Below, piece after piece: positions 23,294 to 56,407 of a stretch of DNA of 64,000 nucleotides. How positions within the stretch are numbered: the stretch's first letter is position 1; each line of letters begins with the position of its first letter. The position numbers and the translations under genes were made by a program. The notes beneath the pieces were generated by a model, which saw only the letters and a list, made by a program, of their open reading frames with translations, was not told where the DNA came from and ran no database searches. Origin of the DNA: Cupriavidus metallidurans CH34 (lineage in GTDB: Bacteria; Pseudomonadota; Gammaproteobacteria; Burkholderiales; Burkholderiaceae); the NCBI RefSeq assembly GCF_000196015.1, contig NC_007973.1, positions 124,001-188,000 on the forward strand, in the 5' to 3' direction.

Positions 23294-23385
23294 TCGCGCC
23301 GATTTGATGACTGGCTTGCGGGCGCGCGGCGATGGGAAGGGAAGTCTTCCGGTTGCCAATATAAATGCGGCTAAAGAGGTTGGGT
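23294..23385 (+). ncRNA. SAM-II-type riboswitch with long loop, upstream of metX
   Basis: P1 is cgcgcc (23295-23300) paired to ggcgcg (23321-23326). The P1 loop begins GATTT and ends CTTGCG, as in SAM-II. The conserved 3' segment is AATATAAATGCGGCTAAAG (23358-23376). Between P1 and that segment is an extra hairpin (ggaa-gtc-ttcc inside ggc/gcc arms), giving the long-loop form. A terminator lies 55 bases downstream, so binding of S-adenosylmethionine probably lowers metX-metW transcription. Function follows from the family. Confidence 0.82.
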
Positions 23386-23515: not shown

Positions 23516-24688
23516 ATGACCGATGTCGCTCCTCCCGCTGGTGTGCTCGACGTGCCGACCGATTCCGTCGGTGTCGTTACGCCCCAGCGCATGCATTTTT
23601 CGGAGCCGCTGCAGCTCCGCAACGGCAGCCAGATCGCCGACTACGACCTGATGGTCGAAACCTACGGCACGCTGAACGCCGCGCGGACCAATGCCGTGCT
23701 GGTCTGTCACGCGCTCAACGCCTCGCACCACGTCGCCGGCATCGCCGCGGACAATCCGCGCGATATCGGCTGGTGGGACAACATGGTGGGCCCCGGCAAG
23801 CCGCTCGACACCAACCGCTTCTTCGTGATCGGCGTGAACAACCTCGGCTCGTGCTTCGGATCGACCGGGCCGATGAGCACCAATCCGTCGACCGGGGCGC
23901 CGTATGGCGCGTTGTTCCCGGTGGTGACGGTGGAAGACTGGGTCAACGCGCAGGCGCGCGTGGCCGACATATTCGGCATTCAACAGTTCGCCGCCGTGAT
24001 GGGCGGCAGCCTGGGCGGCATGCAGGCGCTGGCCTGGAGCCTGATGTATCCGGAGCGGCTGCGCCACTGCATCGTGGTGGCTTCCACGCCGAAACTGTCC
24101 GCGCAGAACATCGCGTTCAACGAGGTCGCGCGCAGTTCCATCCTGTCGGACCCGGATTTCCACGGCGGCAACTACTACGCGCACAACGTCAAGCCGAAGC
24201 GCGGCCTGCGCGTGGCGCGGATGATCGGCCATATCACCTATCTGTCCGACGAGGACATGGCCGAGAAATTCGGCCGCTCGCTGAAGGCCGAGGACATCCG
24301 CTTCTCGTTTGACGTCGAGTTCCAGGTGGAAAGCTACCTGCGTTACCAGGGCGACAAATTCGCCGAGTACTTCGACGCGAATACCTACCTGCTGATCACG
24401 CGCGCGCTCGACTACTTCGATCCGGCGCTGGCGCACGGTGGCGACCTGACGCGCGCCATGGCGCAGACGCAGGCCGGCTTCCTGGTCGTCAGTTTCACCA
24501 CGGACTGGCGCTTTGCGCCGAACCGCAGCCGCGAGATCGTCAAGGCGCTGCTCGACAACAAGCGACCGGTGTCGTACGCGGAGATCGACGCTCCGCACGG
24601 CCACGATGCCTTCCTGCTCGACGACGCCCGCTATCACAACCTGATGCGCGCCTACTACGACCGCATCGCAGAGGAGATCGGCGCATGA
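23516..24688 (+). CDS. metX: Homoserine O-acyltransferase MetX
   Basis: 390-residue alpha/beta-hydrolase-fold acyltransferase that activates homoserine for methionine synthesis. The nucleophile elbow is [12 protein letters not shown], the catalytic His is in [10 protein letters not shown], and [14 protein letters not shown] matches the family. In many proteobacteria MetX uses succinyl-CoA rather than acetyl-CoA; I cannot settle this. It overlaps metW by four bases (ATGA). It is controlled by the SAM-II-type leader. Confidence 0.95.
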
Positions 24689-36368: not shown

Positions 36369-36374
36369 TATAAT
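36369..36374 (+). promoter_or_regulatory. -10 element of the metK leader transcript
   Basis: Perfect TATAAT. Start of transcription would be near 36380, exactly where the P1 stem of the leader begins. It leaves a leader of about 130 bases before the GTG of metK. Confidence 0.6.
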
Positions 36375-36379
36375 AGCCT

Positions 36380-36464
36380 GCATCGCCGAGTTAACTGACA
36401 ACTTGCGGGGCGATGCCGCTCTACCCGAGGGGCTTGAAAATACCGCTAAAGCGTCGCCGCATCG
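36380..36464 (+). ncRNA. Probable SAM-II-like riboswitch upstream of metK
   Basis: P1 is gcatcgcc (36380-36387) with ggcgatgc (36409-36416). The P1 loop starts GAgTTaA and ends CTTGCGG, matching the metX leader at 12 of 21 positions. The 3' segment AAAATACCGCTAAAG (36437-36451) matches the metX AAATGCGGCTAAAG. A second stem using gcatcg (36459-36464) would compete with P1 for cgatgc, giving a plausible switch. Assignment rests on this internal comparison and the gene it precedes. Confidence 0.68.
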
Positions 36465-36509
36465 TTTCCCGAGGCTGGCACGCAATAGCCAACTTGGAGA
36501 AACCAGATC

Positions 36510-37673
<1,164 letters not shown>

Positions 37674-45552: not shown

Positions 45553-45786
45553 GGCATCTCCTGCGTGCGGAATTCGATCGAGGGGGCAGCCTGATGCGGT
45601 TCATGGTACGGCAACAACGGCGCGCGCAACACTGCCGAATCCCGCCACAAGACCGGCCAGCCTGCTTGCATCCGCCGTTATCGTGCACCGCAACATATCG
45701 ATTCCGATACTGTGATGCATGACAGATGCAACCGATCTTTGGCTGGCGTCAGGCAGGGGCTTGTGCTTAAATTCACCCCGTTGGAT

Positions 45787-45871
45787 GAAACAGGGGTGCC
45801 GTTCGGATGGGCCGGGCGGCTGAGAGAGTCCCTTCGAACCCGATCCGGCTAGTACCGGCGTGGGAAGTTTC
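45787..45871 (+). ncRNA. TPP (thi-box) riboswitch upstream of thiC
   Basis: P1 is gaaac/gtttc. Core motifs CAGGGGTGCC, CGGCTGAGAGAGTCCCTTCGAACC and CGATCCGGCTAGTACCGGCGTGGGAAG are present in order, so the call is certain by family (only landmarks are quoted: ctgagagagtcccttcgaac, ccggctagtaccggcg). Downstream, a nested hairpin (gtcccg/cgggac, 45893-45930) and tcgtcc/ggacga (45978-46005), which would cover part of the ribosome site, are likely expression elements. In the 458-base gap upstream of thiC the rest (45553-45786) holds no gene. Confidence 0.96.
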
Positions 45872-45995
45872 AAATAGAACCGAATTGCTCTAGTCCCGCG
45901 GATTTCCACATTGATCCGCACAAACGGGACACCGCCGCCGGCCATGCCTCGCGACGGACCTCACAGGGCTCCTGGTTTCGTCCATCCCCGCATGA

Positions 45996-47888
<1,893 letters not shown>

Positions 47889-53412: not shown

Positions 53413-53421
53413 ACCGCCACT

Positions 53422-53485
53422 CCGAGGAGCGTTGCAACGGATGGCCTCGCCTTCCGCCAGGCTCGGAATGTTTCAACGGCGCTCG
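53422..53485 (+). ncRNA. SAH riboswitch upstream of ahcY
   Basis: P1 ccgag (53422-53426) pairs with ctcgg (53462-53466). The conserved GAGCGTTGCAACGG and CCAGGCTCGGAA blocks are present, and gagcg (53427-53431) can form the pseudoknot with cgctc (53480-53484). This matches the SAH riboswitch, an 'on' switch that raises ahcY expression when S-adenosylhomocysteine builds up. The ~145 bases to the ahcY start contain further GC-rich hairpins (for example cggca/tgccg near 53545-53572) but no T-run. Confidence 0.93.
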
Positions 53486-53629
53486 CAGTTCCGTGGTTCG
53501 CACGGACGCGAGTCGACCTGTCCGCCCGCCATGCCAAGTGCTGGCGCGGCCATCGGCACCCCATCGGGGCTGCCGTCATCTTGTCGCCCTCCCGTTTCTT
53601 GCGTGACCACTTCAACTACGGAGTGACGT

Positions 53630-55048
53630 ATGAACGCAGTGACCGACCTGAAGCAAGACTACATCGTGGCCGATATCGGCCTGGCCGGCTGGGGCCGCAA
53701 GGAAATCGCCATCGCCGAGACCGAAATGCCCGGTCTGATGGCCATTCGCGACGAATTCGCCGCCGCGCAGCCGCTCAAGGGCGCGCGCATCGCCGGTTCG
53801 CTGCACATGACGATCCAGACCGCCGTGCTGATCGAAACGCTCAAGGCACTGGGCGCCGACGTGCGCTGGGCCTCATGCAACATCTTCTCGACGCAGGATC
53901 ACGCCGCCGCCGCCATCGCCGCGTCGGGCACGCCCGTGTTCGCCTTCAAGGGCGAATCGCTGAAGGAATACTGGGACTTCACGCACCGCATCTTCGACTG
54001 GGCCGACGGCGGCACGCCGAACATGATCCTGGACGATGGCGGCGACGCCACGCTGCTGCTGCACCTGGGTGCCCGCGCCGAAAAGGATGCGTCGCTGATC
54101 GCCAAGCCGACCAGCGAGGAAGAAACCTTCCTGTTCGCGGCCATCAAGGAAAAGCTGGCCAAGGATTCGACCTGGTACAGCCGCAACCTGGCCGCCATTC
54201 GCGGCGTGACCGAGGAAACGACCACCGGCGTGCACCGCCTGTACCAGATGGCGCAAAAGGGTGAACTGAAGTTCCCGGCCATCAACGTCAACGACTCGGT
54301 GACCAAGAGCAAGTTCGACAACCTCTACGGCTGCCGCGAATCGCTGGTGGACGGCATCAAGCGCGCCACCGACGTGATGATCGCCGGCAAGATCGCCGTG
54401 GTTGCCGGTTACGGCGACGTGGGCAAGGGCAGCGCCCAGGCTCTGCGCGCGCTGTCCGCGCAAGTGTGGGTGACCGAGATCGATCCGATTTGCGCGCTGC
54501 AAGCCGCCATGGAAGGCTACCGCGTGGTGACGATGGACTACGCCGCCGAGCACGGTGACATCTTCGTGACCTGCACCGGCAATTACCACGTGATCACGCA
54601 CGACCACATGGCCAAGATGAAGGACCAGGCCATCGTCTGCAACATTGGCCACTTCGACAACGAAATCGACATCGCATCGGTCGAGAAGTACGAATGGGAC
54701 GAGATCAAGCCGCAGGTTGACCACGTCAAGTTCCCGGACGGCAAGAAAATCATCATCCTGGCCAAGGGCCGTCTGGTGAACCTGGGCTGTGCCACGGGCC
54801 ACCCGTCGTACGTGATGAGCAGCTCGTTCGCCAACCAGACGATCGCCCAGATCGAACTGTGGGCCGAACGTGACAGCGGCAAGTACCCGGTTGGCGTGTA
54901 CGTGCTGCCGAAGCATCTGGACGAGAAGGTCGCGCGCCTGCAGCTCCGGAAGCTGAACGCGCAACTGACCGAGCTGACCGAGCAGCAGGCGGCCTACATC
55001 GGCGTGAAGAAGGAAGGCCCGTACAAGGCCGACCACTACCGCTACTGA
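53630..55048 (+). CDS. ahcY: Adenosylhomocysteinase AhcY
   Basis: 472-residue NAD-dependent enzyme splitting SAH to adenosine and homocysteine. [16 protein letters not shown], the NAD motif [19 protein letters not shown] and the C-terminal [13 protein letters not shown] are family signatures. The segment of about 40 residues typical of bacterial AhcY is present. It is controlled by the SAH riboswitch and followed by a membrane protein and metF. Confidence 0.98.
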
Positions 55049-55529: not shown

Positions 55530-55576
55530 CGCGTTGAGACTCTTTTTCTGGGCGCCGCCACGGCGGCGTGCCAACC

Positions 55577-56407
55577 ATGACTGATCGTTACTTCAGCTTC
55601 GAATTCTTCCCGCCCAAGACGGCGGAGGGCGCGGAGAAACTGCGCAATACGCGCGCGCAGCTTGCGCCGCTGCAGCCCAAGTACATCTCGGTGACGTTCG
55701 GCGCCGGCGGTACCACGCAGCAGGGCACGCTCGATGCCGTGCTGGAGATCCAGCGCGAAGGTATCGAGGCCGCGCCGCACTTGTCCTGCGTGGGCTCCAC
55801 GCGCGACAGCATCCGGCAGATTCTCCAGACCTATCGCGATGGCGGCATCCGCCACATCGTGGCCCTGCGCGGCGATATGCCGTCGGGCATGGGCGAGATC
55901 GGCGAGTTCCGCTATGCCAACGAACTCGTCGAGTTCATCCGCGCGGAAACCGGTGACTGGTTCAACATCGAAGTGGCCGCCTATCCCGAGTACCACCCGC
56001 AGGCCCGTTCGCCGCGTCACGACCTGGAAAACTTCGTGCGCAAGGTCAAGGCCGGCGCGGACTCGGCGATCACGCAGTACTTCTTCAACGCCGATGCGTA
56101 CTTCCGCTTCGTCGACGACGTGCGCGCGATGGGCGTGGAAGTGCCGATCGTGCCCGGCATCATGCCGATCACGAACTACTCTCAGCTGATGCGCTTTTCC
56201 GAGATGTGCGGCGCCGAAGTGCCGCGCTGGGTGGCCAAGCGGCTCGAGTCGTTCGGCGATGACAAGGAAGCAATCCGCGCCTTCGGCCTGGACGTGGTGA
56301 CCGACCTGTGCACGCGCCTGCTCGAAGCGGGCGTGCCGGGCCTGCACTTCTACACGCTCAACGCCGCCGGCGCGACCAAGGCGATCTGGCAGCGCCTGAA
56401 GCTGTAA
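55577..56407 (+). CDS. metF: Methylenetetrahydrofolate reductase MetF
   Basis: 276-residue FAD enzyme reducing 5,10-methylene-THF to 5-methyl-THF, the methyl donor for methionine. SFEFFPPKTAEGAEKL, FGAGGTTQQGTL, LRGDMPSGMGE and ITQYFFNADAYFRFVDD match the family. ATG 55577. It lies behind ahcY and the small membrane protein, linking SAH removal and methyl supply. Confidence 0.96.
   Translation: MTDRYFSFEFFPPKTAEGAEKLRNTRAQLAPLQPKYISVTFGAGGTTQQGTLDAVLEIQREGIEAAPHLSCVGSTRDSIRQILQTYRDGGIRHIVALRGDMPSGMGEIGEFRYANELVEFIRAETGDWFNIEVAAYPEYHPQARSPRHDLENFVRKVKAGADSAITQYFFNADAYFRFVDDVRAMGVEVPIVPGIMPITNYSQLMRFSEMCGAEVPRWVAKRLESFGDDKEAIRAFGLDVVTDLCTRLLEAGVPGLHFYTLNAAGATKAIWQRLKL

Follow-up and report, generated by a model that had tools for sequence, protein, structure and literature searches.

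How is metK, the gene for S-adenosylmethionine (SAM) synthetase, controlled in betaproteobacteria? Leyn et al. (2014, PMC4239095) found no regulator for it in this group, a directed search having failed, and the question is raised again by the leader of metK in Cupriavidus metallidurans CH34. This leader was studied within a stretch of 64,000 nucleotides (NC_007973.1, positions 124,001 to 188,000), referred to here as the window, in which metK has a GTG start and occupies 36510–37673 on the forward strand, the strand that also carries all parts of the metK and metX leaders described below. The protein contains three S-AdoMet_synt Pfam domains, and its top three named relatives are all from Cupriavidus (96–98% identity).

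A first-pass annotation had placed a second SAM-II-like riboswitch here, after one upstream of metX, and all the features that it named in the metK leader are present when the window is read directly. The P1 stem of eight pairs can be formed by GCATCGCC (36380–36387) and GGCGATGC (36409–36416), of which just the inner six pairs (36382–36387 with 36409–36414) make up a conserved helix. The loop starts with GAGTT (36388–36392) and ends with CTTGCGG (36402–36408). The 3′ block AAATACCGCTAAAG at 36438–36451 has its counterpart, AAATGCGGCTAAAG, at 23363–23376 in the metX leader, and these are the sole two sites in the window at up to 2 mismatches, where shuffling expects 0.17. A −10 box, TATAAT, lies at 36369–36374, its first base 11 bases before P1. 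Within 26 bases before P1, a box of this type (at most 1 mismatch) is found in 74 of 87 metK leaders (shuffled rate, 0.091), and 61 of the 74 end 6 or 7 bases upstream of P1. This nearly fixed spacing suggests that P1 probably opens the transcript, with transcription probably starting at or just upstream of it.

Structure and distribution of the leader element

The remaining parts can be laid out as an H-type pseudoknot. The third strand L1, GAGTTAA (36388–36394), aligns with SAM-II as G8 A9 G10 U11 U12 A13 A14. P2a would join GAC (36397–36399) to GUC (36453–36455), with U36396–G36456 as a possible extra wobble pair, and P2b would join UUGCGG (36403–36408) to CCGC and AA around U36447 (36443–36450). 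Between the 3′ strand of P1 and that of P2b lies a linker of variable length (36417–36442) that ends in AAAATA and may form a small hairpin in the window copy; from TTGC to two bases before GCTAAAG, the 3′ strand of P1 included, 76 elements span 16 to 69 bases. Single-strand folding of the element, by a program without pseudoknot modeling, reveals nothing unusual (z 0.55).

The helices were compared in 80 distinct cores, aligned by fixed distance from the conserved letters and not by structure. Pairs 1–6 of P1 are formed in 76, 78, 79, 79, 80, and 72 of the 80 cores, against shuffle maxima of 74, 77, 79, 79, 69, and 50; pairs 3 and 4 are nearly invariant and say little. A conserved P1 of eight or nine pairs was rejected, as pairs 7–9 are formed in just 33, 36, and 24 cores. 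In the case of P2a (GAC/GUC), all three positions are paired in 80/80 cores. The first never varies, and the third is GC in 51, AT in 27, and GT in 2 (shuffle maximum, 70), a GC-to-AU change seen, for example, as GAAC/GUUC in Acidovorax-type leaders. P2b gains two pairs beyond UUGC/GCUAA, the first of which is paired in 80/80 cores (GC 48, AT 28, GT 3, TA 1; shuffle maximum, 67) and the second in 79/80 (shuffle maximum, 74).

In alignment A1, 98.2% of the cells of all 15 pairs are paired, while sliding the partners by 1–3 columns gives 32–47%. Changes on both sides of a pair occur in 65 cells vs 20.4 (sd 3.9) in shuffles, which, like the permutations used below, leave the relatedness of the leaders in place; 0 of 500 shuffles reached as many. 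For the pseudoknot helices alone, pairing is 100% and two-sided changes fill 33 cells, where shuffles give 10.9 (sd 2.2). Nothing can be learned from the pairs that are invariant in A1, which number two of six in P1, one of three in P2a, and four of six in P2b. The number of pairs with a two-sided change (7 vs 5.7 shuffled, reached by 27/500) does not stand out, nor does the number of further pair types (14 vs 15.1, reached by 473/500). The H-type pseudoknot with P1, P2a, and P2b that characterizes SAM-II is thus found here with all three helices covarying, including P1, whose covariation across related metK leaders had been proposed as a check. On this comparative evidence, a conserved structured RNA upstream of metK can be considered beyond reasonable doubt, and it very likely has the SAM-II fold.

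Covariance models can also reveal how widely the element occurs. MetK loci were gathered as 80 named loci and a second set of 30, giving 110 upstream regions. Without selection, 88 of these (87 distinct) contain the exact pattern GTTA..TTGC..GCTAAAG, made up of SAM-II pocket letters. A model, R1, was built with P1 as its sole helix from 37 metK leaders, all selected with a pattern in which base 10 must be G; 31 of them belong to the named loci. It matches 68/80 named loci (66 complete, L022 cut by a contig end, and L031 partial), among them Cupriavidus, Paraburkholderia, Acidovorax, Massilia, Achromobacter, Azovibrio, and others; outside the training set, 37 of 49 match. In the second set, 24 of 30 match (18/24 outside training), as do 16 of another 40 metK leaders, which were selected for family breadth. 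No R1 match was obtained at metK in 12/80 named, 6/30 second-set, and 24/40 further loci, and the 18 of 110 without a match include three Gallionella, a Nitrosomonas, two Neisseriaceae, and Chitiniphilus. The window leader scores 72.2 bits, which is not independent evidence since this leader (L089) is itself in the training set. At a wider scale, R1 matches 222/300 genomes of the GTDB order (E ≤0.01), with many of the listed places not at metK, and 65/143 genomes of the class, mostly at lower scores; seven of 40 order-level places that were fetched are metK (L139–L144, L152).

The covariance-model check at a relaxed cut-off that the first-pass annotation had put forward went against that annotation, as none of 4227 Rfam families matches the metK leader up to E 10, and the gathering cut-off of SAM-II (RF00521, SAM_alpha; 36 bits) is not reached. 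A SAM_alpha search of the whole genome (6.9 Mb, four contigs) lists 8 places, none at metK. When 11 further metK leaders were scanned with Rfam (three at E up to 0.1, eight at E up to 1), only L014 had a SAM_alpha match (22.1 bits, E 0.72). At gathering scores, the whole window yields just a TPP and an SAH riboswitch. The TPP riboswitch (45782–45883, 70.4 bits) precedes an ORF at 46011–47888 that reads as thiC by eye. The SAH riboswitch (53418–53491, 67.9 bits) precedes one at 53630–55048 that reads as ahcY by eye, and a metF-like ORF, also by eye, lies at 55568–56407; the metX, metK, and ahcY leaders fall within about 31 kb. At three other loci (L051 2718, L061 2734, L080 2744), an SAH riboswitch lies directly 3′ of metK.

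The expression platform

The first-pass annotation had proposed two exclusive folds from a pairing between part of P1 and gcatcg at 36459–36464. Such a pairing is possible in the window but is not conserved, being weaker within leaders than between them (z +2.0), and this alternative fold was rejected; two downstream helices covary instead. The first, P3, would pair GCGUCGCC (36451–36458), which overlaps the 3′ strand of P2a and would compete with it, with GGCACGC (36477–36483). The second would pair an anti-Shine-Dalgarno (anti-SD) strand, GUUUCCC (36464–36470), with the Shine-Dalgarno (SD) region GGAGAAAC (36496–36503). The platform tests cover 84 leaders, since three of the 87 lack a usable start codon. 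P3 pairing is stronger within than between leaders, with a z of −10.1 (controls, −0.2 to +0.7), as is the anti-SD/SD pairing, with a z of −9.3 (reversed −2.9, shuffled +1.9, upstream +0.4). Comparison of leaders supports P1, P2a, P2b, P3, and the anti-SD/SD helix alike.

For RNA that stops short of the SD, the minimum-energy fold contains P3 in 64/84 leaders. In 64/84, at least 80% of the best anti-SD falls within the P3 loop, and in 38/84 it overlaps a P3 strand, so the picture differs among leaders. With P3 enforced, the mean openness of the SD is 0.43, vs 0.24 with the aptamer occupied, and it is higher by at least 0.2 in 41 leaders and lower in 5. At equilibrium, the unconstrained RNA is at 0.24 as well, being more open in just 1 leader with the reverse in 5. 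A switch acting at equilibrium only was rejected because SD openness is equal in both states, and the model needs a kinetic P3. A terminator platform for metK was likewise rejected: terminator-like structures occur in 2/84 metK leaders, the window's not among them, in a screen that allows hairpins of up to 34 bases and misses the window metX terminator, whose arms (CCCGACTTGGC and GCCAGTCGGG, followed by a T run; read by eye) lie further apart.

These observations can be assembled into a model in which the metK leader, in our judgment, probably uses a variant SAM-II aptamer to switch translation off. P1 would fold first. SAM would be bound in the pseudoknot, with L1 in the groove of P2b, and P2a would close (GAC 36397–36399 with GUC 36453–36455), taking bases needed by P3. 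With P3 lost, the anti-SD strand would be free to pair with the ribosome site, and translation of metK would fall. When SAM is scarce, P3 would form during transcription and hold the anti-SD strand, and the ribosome site would stay open. The best inference has SAM as the ligand, binding that favors P2a over P3, and translational repression as the outcome.

The same aptamer and ligand could also serve another form of control, namely an ON switch at the start codon, or control through Rho or RNA stability in place of ribosome access. The 5′ strand of P3 can pair with the start-codon region as well (z −8.6; own −10.66 vs permuted −8.76; reversed control −1.1), and P2a would then take the strand otherwise engaged there, which allows the opposite direction of control; the SD is, moreover, already hidden in the unconstrained fold. 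However, the covariation of P3 inside the leader is no weaker, P3 would be made first, and part of the start-codon match falls in coding bases from +4 onward (z −4.9). Such alternatives are unlikely by comparison with the translational OFF switch, although they deserve the most weight among its rivals.

Pocket bases, tandem copies, and ligand

In SAM-II, U10 U11 U12, U20 U21 G22 C23, and G42 C43 U44 A45 A46 A47 are completely conserved; U11 and U21 contact the sulfonium, while the adenine is reached by U44 and the aminoacyl end by A47, according to the sections of PMC3764141 consulted. The contacts U11, U21, G22, U44, and A47 all fall within the pattern GTTA..TTGC..GCTAAAG, and in the window U36447 corresponds to U44 and A36450 to A47 (contacts as given in parts of PMC3764141 and PMC6061858). 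The invariant pocket bases of SAM-II are kept in the metK element, U10 alone differing; since the leader parser requires TT, TTGC, and GCTAAA, parsed leaders are no independent test of those letters. Base 10 is G in 105, U in 4, and A in 1 of 110 parsed metK leaders (111 distinct), and G in 68, U in 4, and A in 1 of the 73 without R1 training sequences, although the G10 training of R1 means that U10 elements at metK may be under-counted and the G10 share too high. Parsing failed for 1/111 metK leaders, 3/21 tandem 5′ copies, 3/21 tandem 3′ copies, and 1/18 single non-metK elements. Positions 24:41, predicted by mutual information to be a homopurine pair in SAM-II (PMC2258182, in the portion seen), are Watson–Crick or GU in 103/110 metK leaders, GG in 5, and GA in 2, with numbering assigned in this analysis.

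The metX leader of the same window provides a useful comparison. It is a classic SAM-II-like element (GATTTGA, U10) at 23295–23376, upstream of an ORF with an alpha/beta hydrolase fold (23516–24688), and apparently belongs to the published metXZ kind (PMC4239095). SAM_alpha finds it below threshold (19.8 bits, E 0.019; gathering 36), and R1 gives only 12.6 bits (E 0.11). Across metX leaders, the element pattern was seen in 10/30 loci, one of which (L208) was parsed out of register. The idea of a SAM-II-like leader before metK is borne out by covariation in P1 and in both pseudoknot helices, while that of a simple second copy of the metX leader is not, as the metK element forms a separate subtype. 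This subtype is marked by G10, A13, GACAACTTGC, two extra Watson–Crick pairs in P2b, and the lack of a terminator. The fitting name for it is SAM-II variant (metK type), because U10, the 24:41 pair, and the Rfam threshold all set it apart from SAM-II proper.

Both subtypes can occur side by side. In 39 picked loci (33 non-metK loci from the order-level search and six from the class-level search, scanned together), 21 have two elements in tandem (L119–L130, L132, L133, L137, L138, L147, L149, L157, L161, L163). The 5′ copies are classic, with U10 in 16/18 parsed, G13 in 18/18, and 24:41 as GG or GA in 11 (the other 7 have a standard pair), and a terminator-like structure follows in 19/21. The 3′ copies are of metK type, with A13 in 16/18 and a Watson–Crick 24:41 pair in 17/18; at base 10, G and U each occur in 9. 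In nine tandem loci, SAM_alpha matches six 5′ copies (26.9–36.9 bits, one above 36) and no 3′ copy. Tandem SAM-II riboswitches in which the first copy has a terminator and the second a ribosome-site platform were described by Sherlock et al. (PMC9481103; 44 doublets, some of mixed type, in the text available), so the tandem arrangement itself is not new.

Several observations were made around these loci. Many tandems are followed by a small ORF starting with MYDC or MFDC (two were scanned and have no Pfam or NCBIfam family) and then by a MATE transporter-like ORF (L127 by family match, others by eye). Elements in L134, L136, and L163 precede AAA ATPase-like ORFs, an unexpected target for SAM control (the L134 protein matches AAA_5 at 22.8 bits, cut-off 22; the other two were judged by eye). 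In L124 and L125, tandems lie some 170 bases before an HD-domain ORF resembling the hydrolase part of RelA/SpoT (the L124 protein was scanned). RF02424, the Burkholderia sRNA candidate Bp2_287, has weak matches on the opposite strand of tandems (L161, L163, L157, L128, L137; 22.1–35.0 bits, cut-off 70), which raises the possibility that this sRNA family is a SAM-II-like leader read in antisense. Of the class-level loci L164, L165, and L166, two lie before a metZ-like ORF; their Rfam scores of 26.2, 31.8, and 38.7 bits straddle the cut-off, so SAM-II may be under-annotated outside alphaproteobacteria.

The base-10 counts bear on the ligand. A pocket with G10 could belong to a separate class sensing methionine, SAH, or another adenosyl compound, which the dominance of G10 at metK would favor, as would the place of this base in the pocket: by analogy with SAM-V, base 10 would touch the adenine-binding uridine. 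In SAM-V, the base equivalent to U10 is U8, from which the adenine-binding U47 receives a hydrogen bond (PMC6061858, as far as seen), and by the same analogy a G at position 10 could likewise donate one to the adenine-binding uridine. Yet the remaining published contacts are kept, both sulfonium uridines included, the product of metK makes SAM, and G10 and U10 both occur at metK and in equal numbers in the tandem 3′ copies, which suggests that the two serve the same ligand. A ligand other than SAM is accordingly given very little credence.

Still less probable is a structured leader that binds a protein, for instance MetK itself, with no riboswitch involved. Protein autoregulation also makes use of conserved structure beside a start codon, and MetK has been proposed as an RNA-binding protein (PMC9373788, in the part consulted), but the letters that are conserved belong to the SAM-II pocket, and the same subtype also stands before other genes. 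Chance similarity of two GC-rich leaders, for which the empty Rfam search and the ordinary single-strand fold might be cited, can be set aside given compensatory change across families and the R1 matches at 37/49 named loci outside training.

Known systems and meaning

The metK element can be placed among known systems. It shares with SAM-II the H-type pseudoknot, P1, an L1 with G8 U11 U12, UUGC with GCUAAA, the kept contacts, and a place in the leader of a methionine/SAM gene. It differs in its mostly G10 base, a mostly Watson–Crick 24:41 pair, a P2b two pairs longer, the lack of an Rfam match, its location before metK, and a ribosome-site platform without a terminator. SAM-V is also alike: it is related to SAM-II, shares its ligand site, acts on translation, and occurs as a second copy after a transcriptional SAM-II (PMC6061858, PMC11508383, PMC9481103). 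However, in SAM-V the counterpart of U10 is still a U (U8) and part of the SD is contained in P2a, whereas in the metK element the SD lies ~40 bases downstream and would be reached via P3 and the anti-SD strand. The SAM-V model (RF01826) gives no match at E 10, and the SD starts at 36496 while P2a ends at 36455. Leader RNAs of the SAM/SAH, SAM-III, SAM-VI, and SAM-Chlorobi families stand before metK and control SAM synthetase in other hosts, and the leader in the window matches none of them (Rfam, E 10). The metXZ element (PMC4239095) comes from the same host group and also has a proposed pseudoknot, but it stands before metX or metZ with a terminator, while the metK element stands before metK with none.

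No published metK element of this kind was found in the main texts of open-licence papers, and one may have been reported elsewhere. The consulted portion of Barrick and Breaker (2007, PMC2258182) places SAM-II in alpha- and betaproteobacteria, where its mechanisms mostly involve terminators, and the parts at hand of Weinberg et al. (2010, PMC2864571) and of a study in S. meliloti (PMC9373788) show no SAM-II before metK. At this leader in the window the current Rfam model reports nothing, and the element is therefore probably missing from annotations of this group.

A bolder reading, which we regard as doubtful, would make the metK type its own class within the SAM-II fold. The change of U10 to G would retune the pocket to another adenosyl ligand or SAM range, tandems would act as two-input or two-threshold gates, and in betaproteobacteria metX and metK would each respond at a SAM level of its own.

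SAM is made by SAM synthetase, and a compact putative feedback element is present in most Burkholderiales-type metK leaders examined. It probably lets the cell turn the enzyme down when SAM is plentiful. With metX-type and metK-type aptamers in one genome, a few defined bases apart, these bacteria offer a natural experiment in how one fold may be tuned for transcription or for translation.
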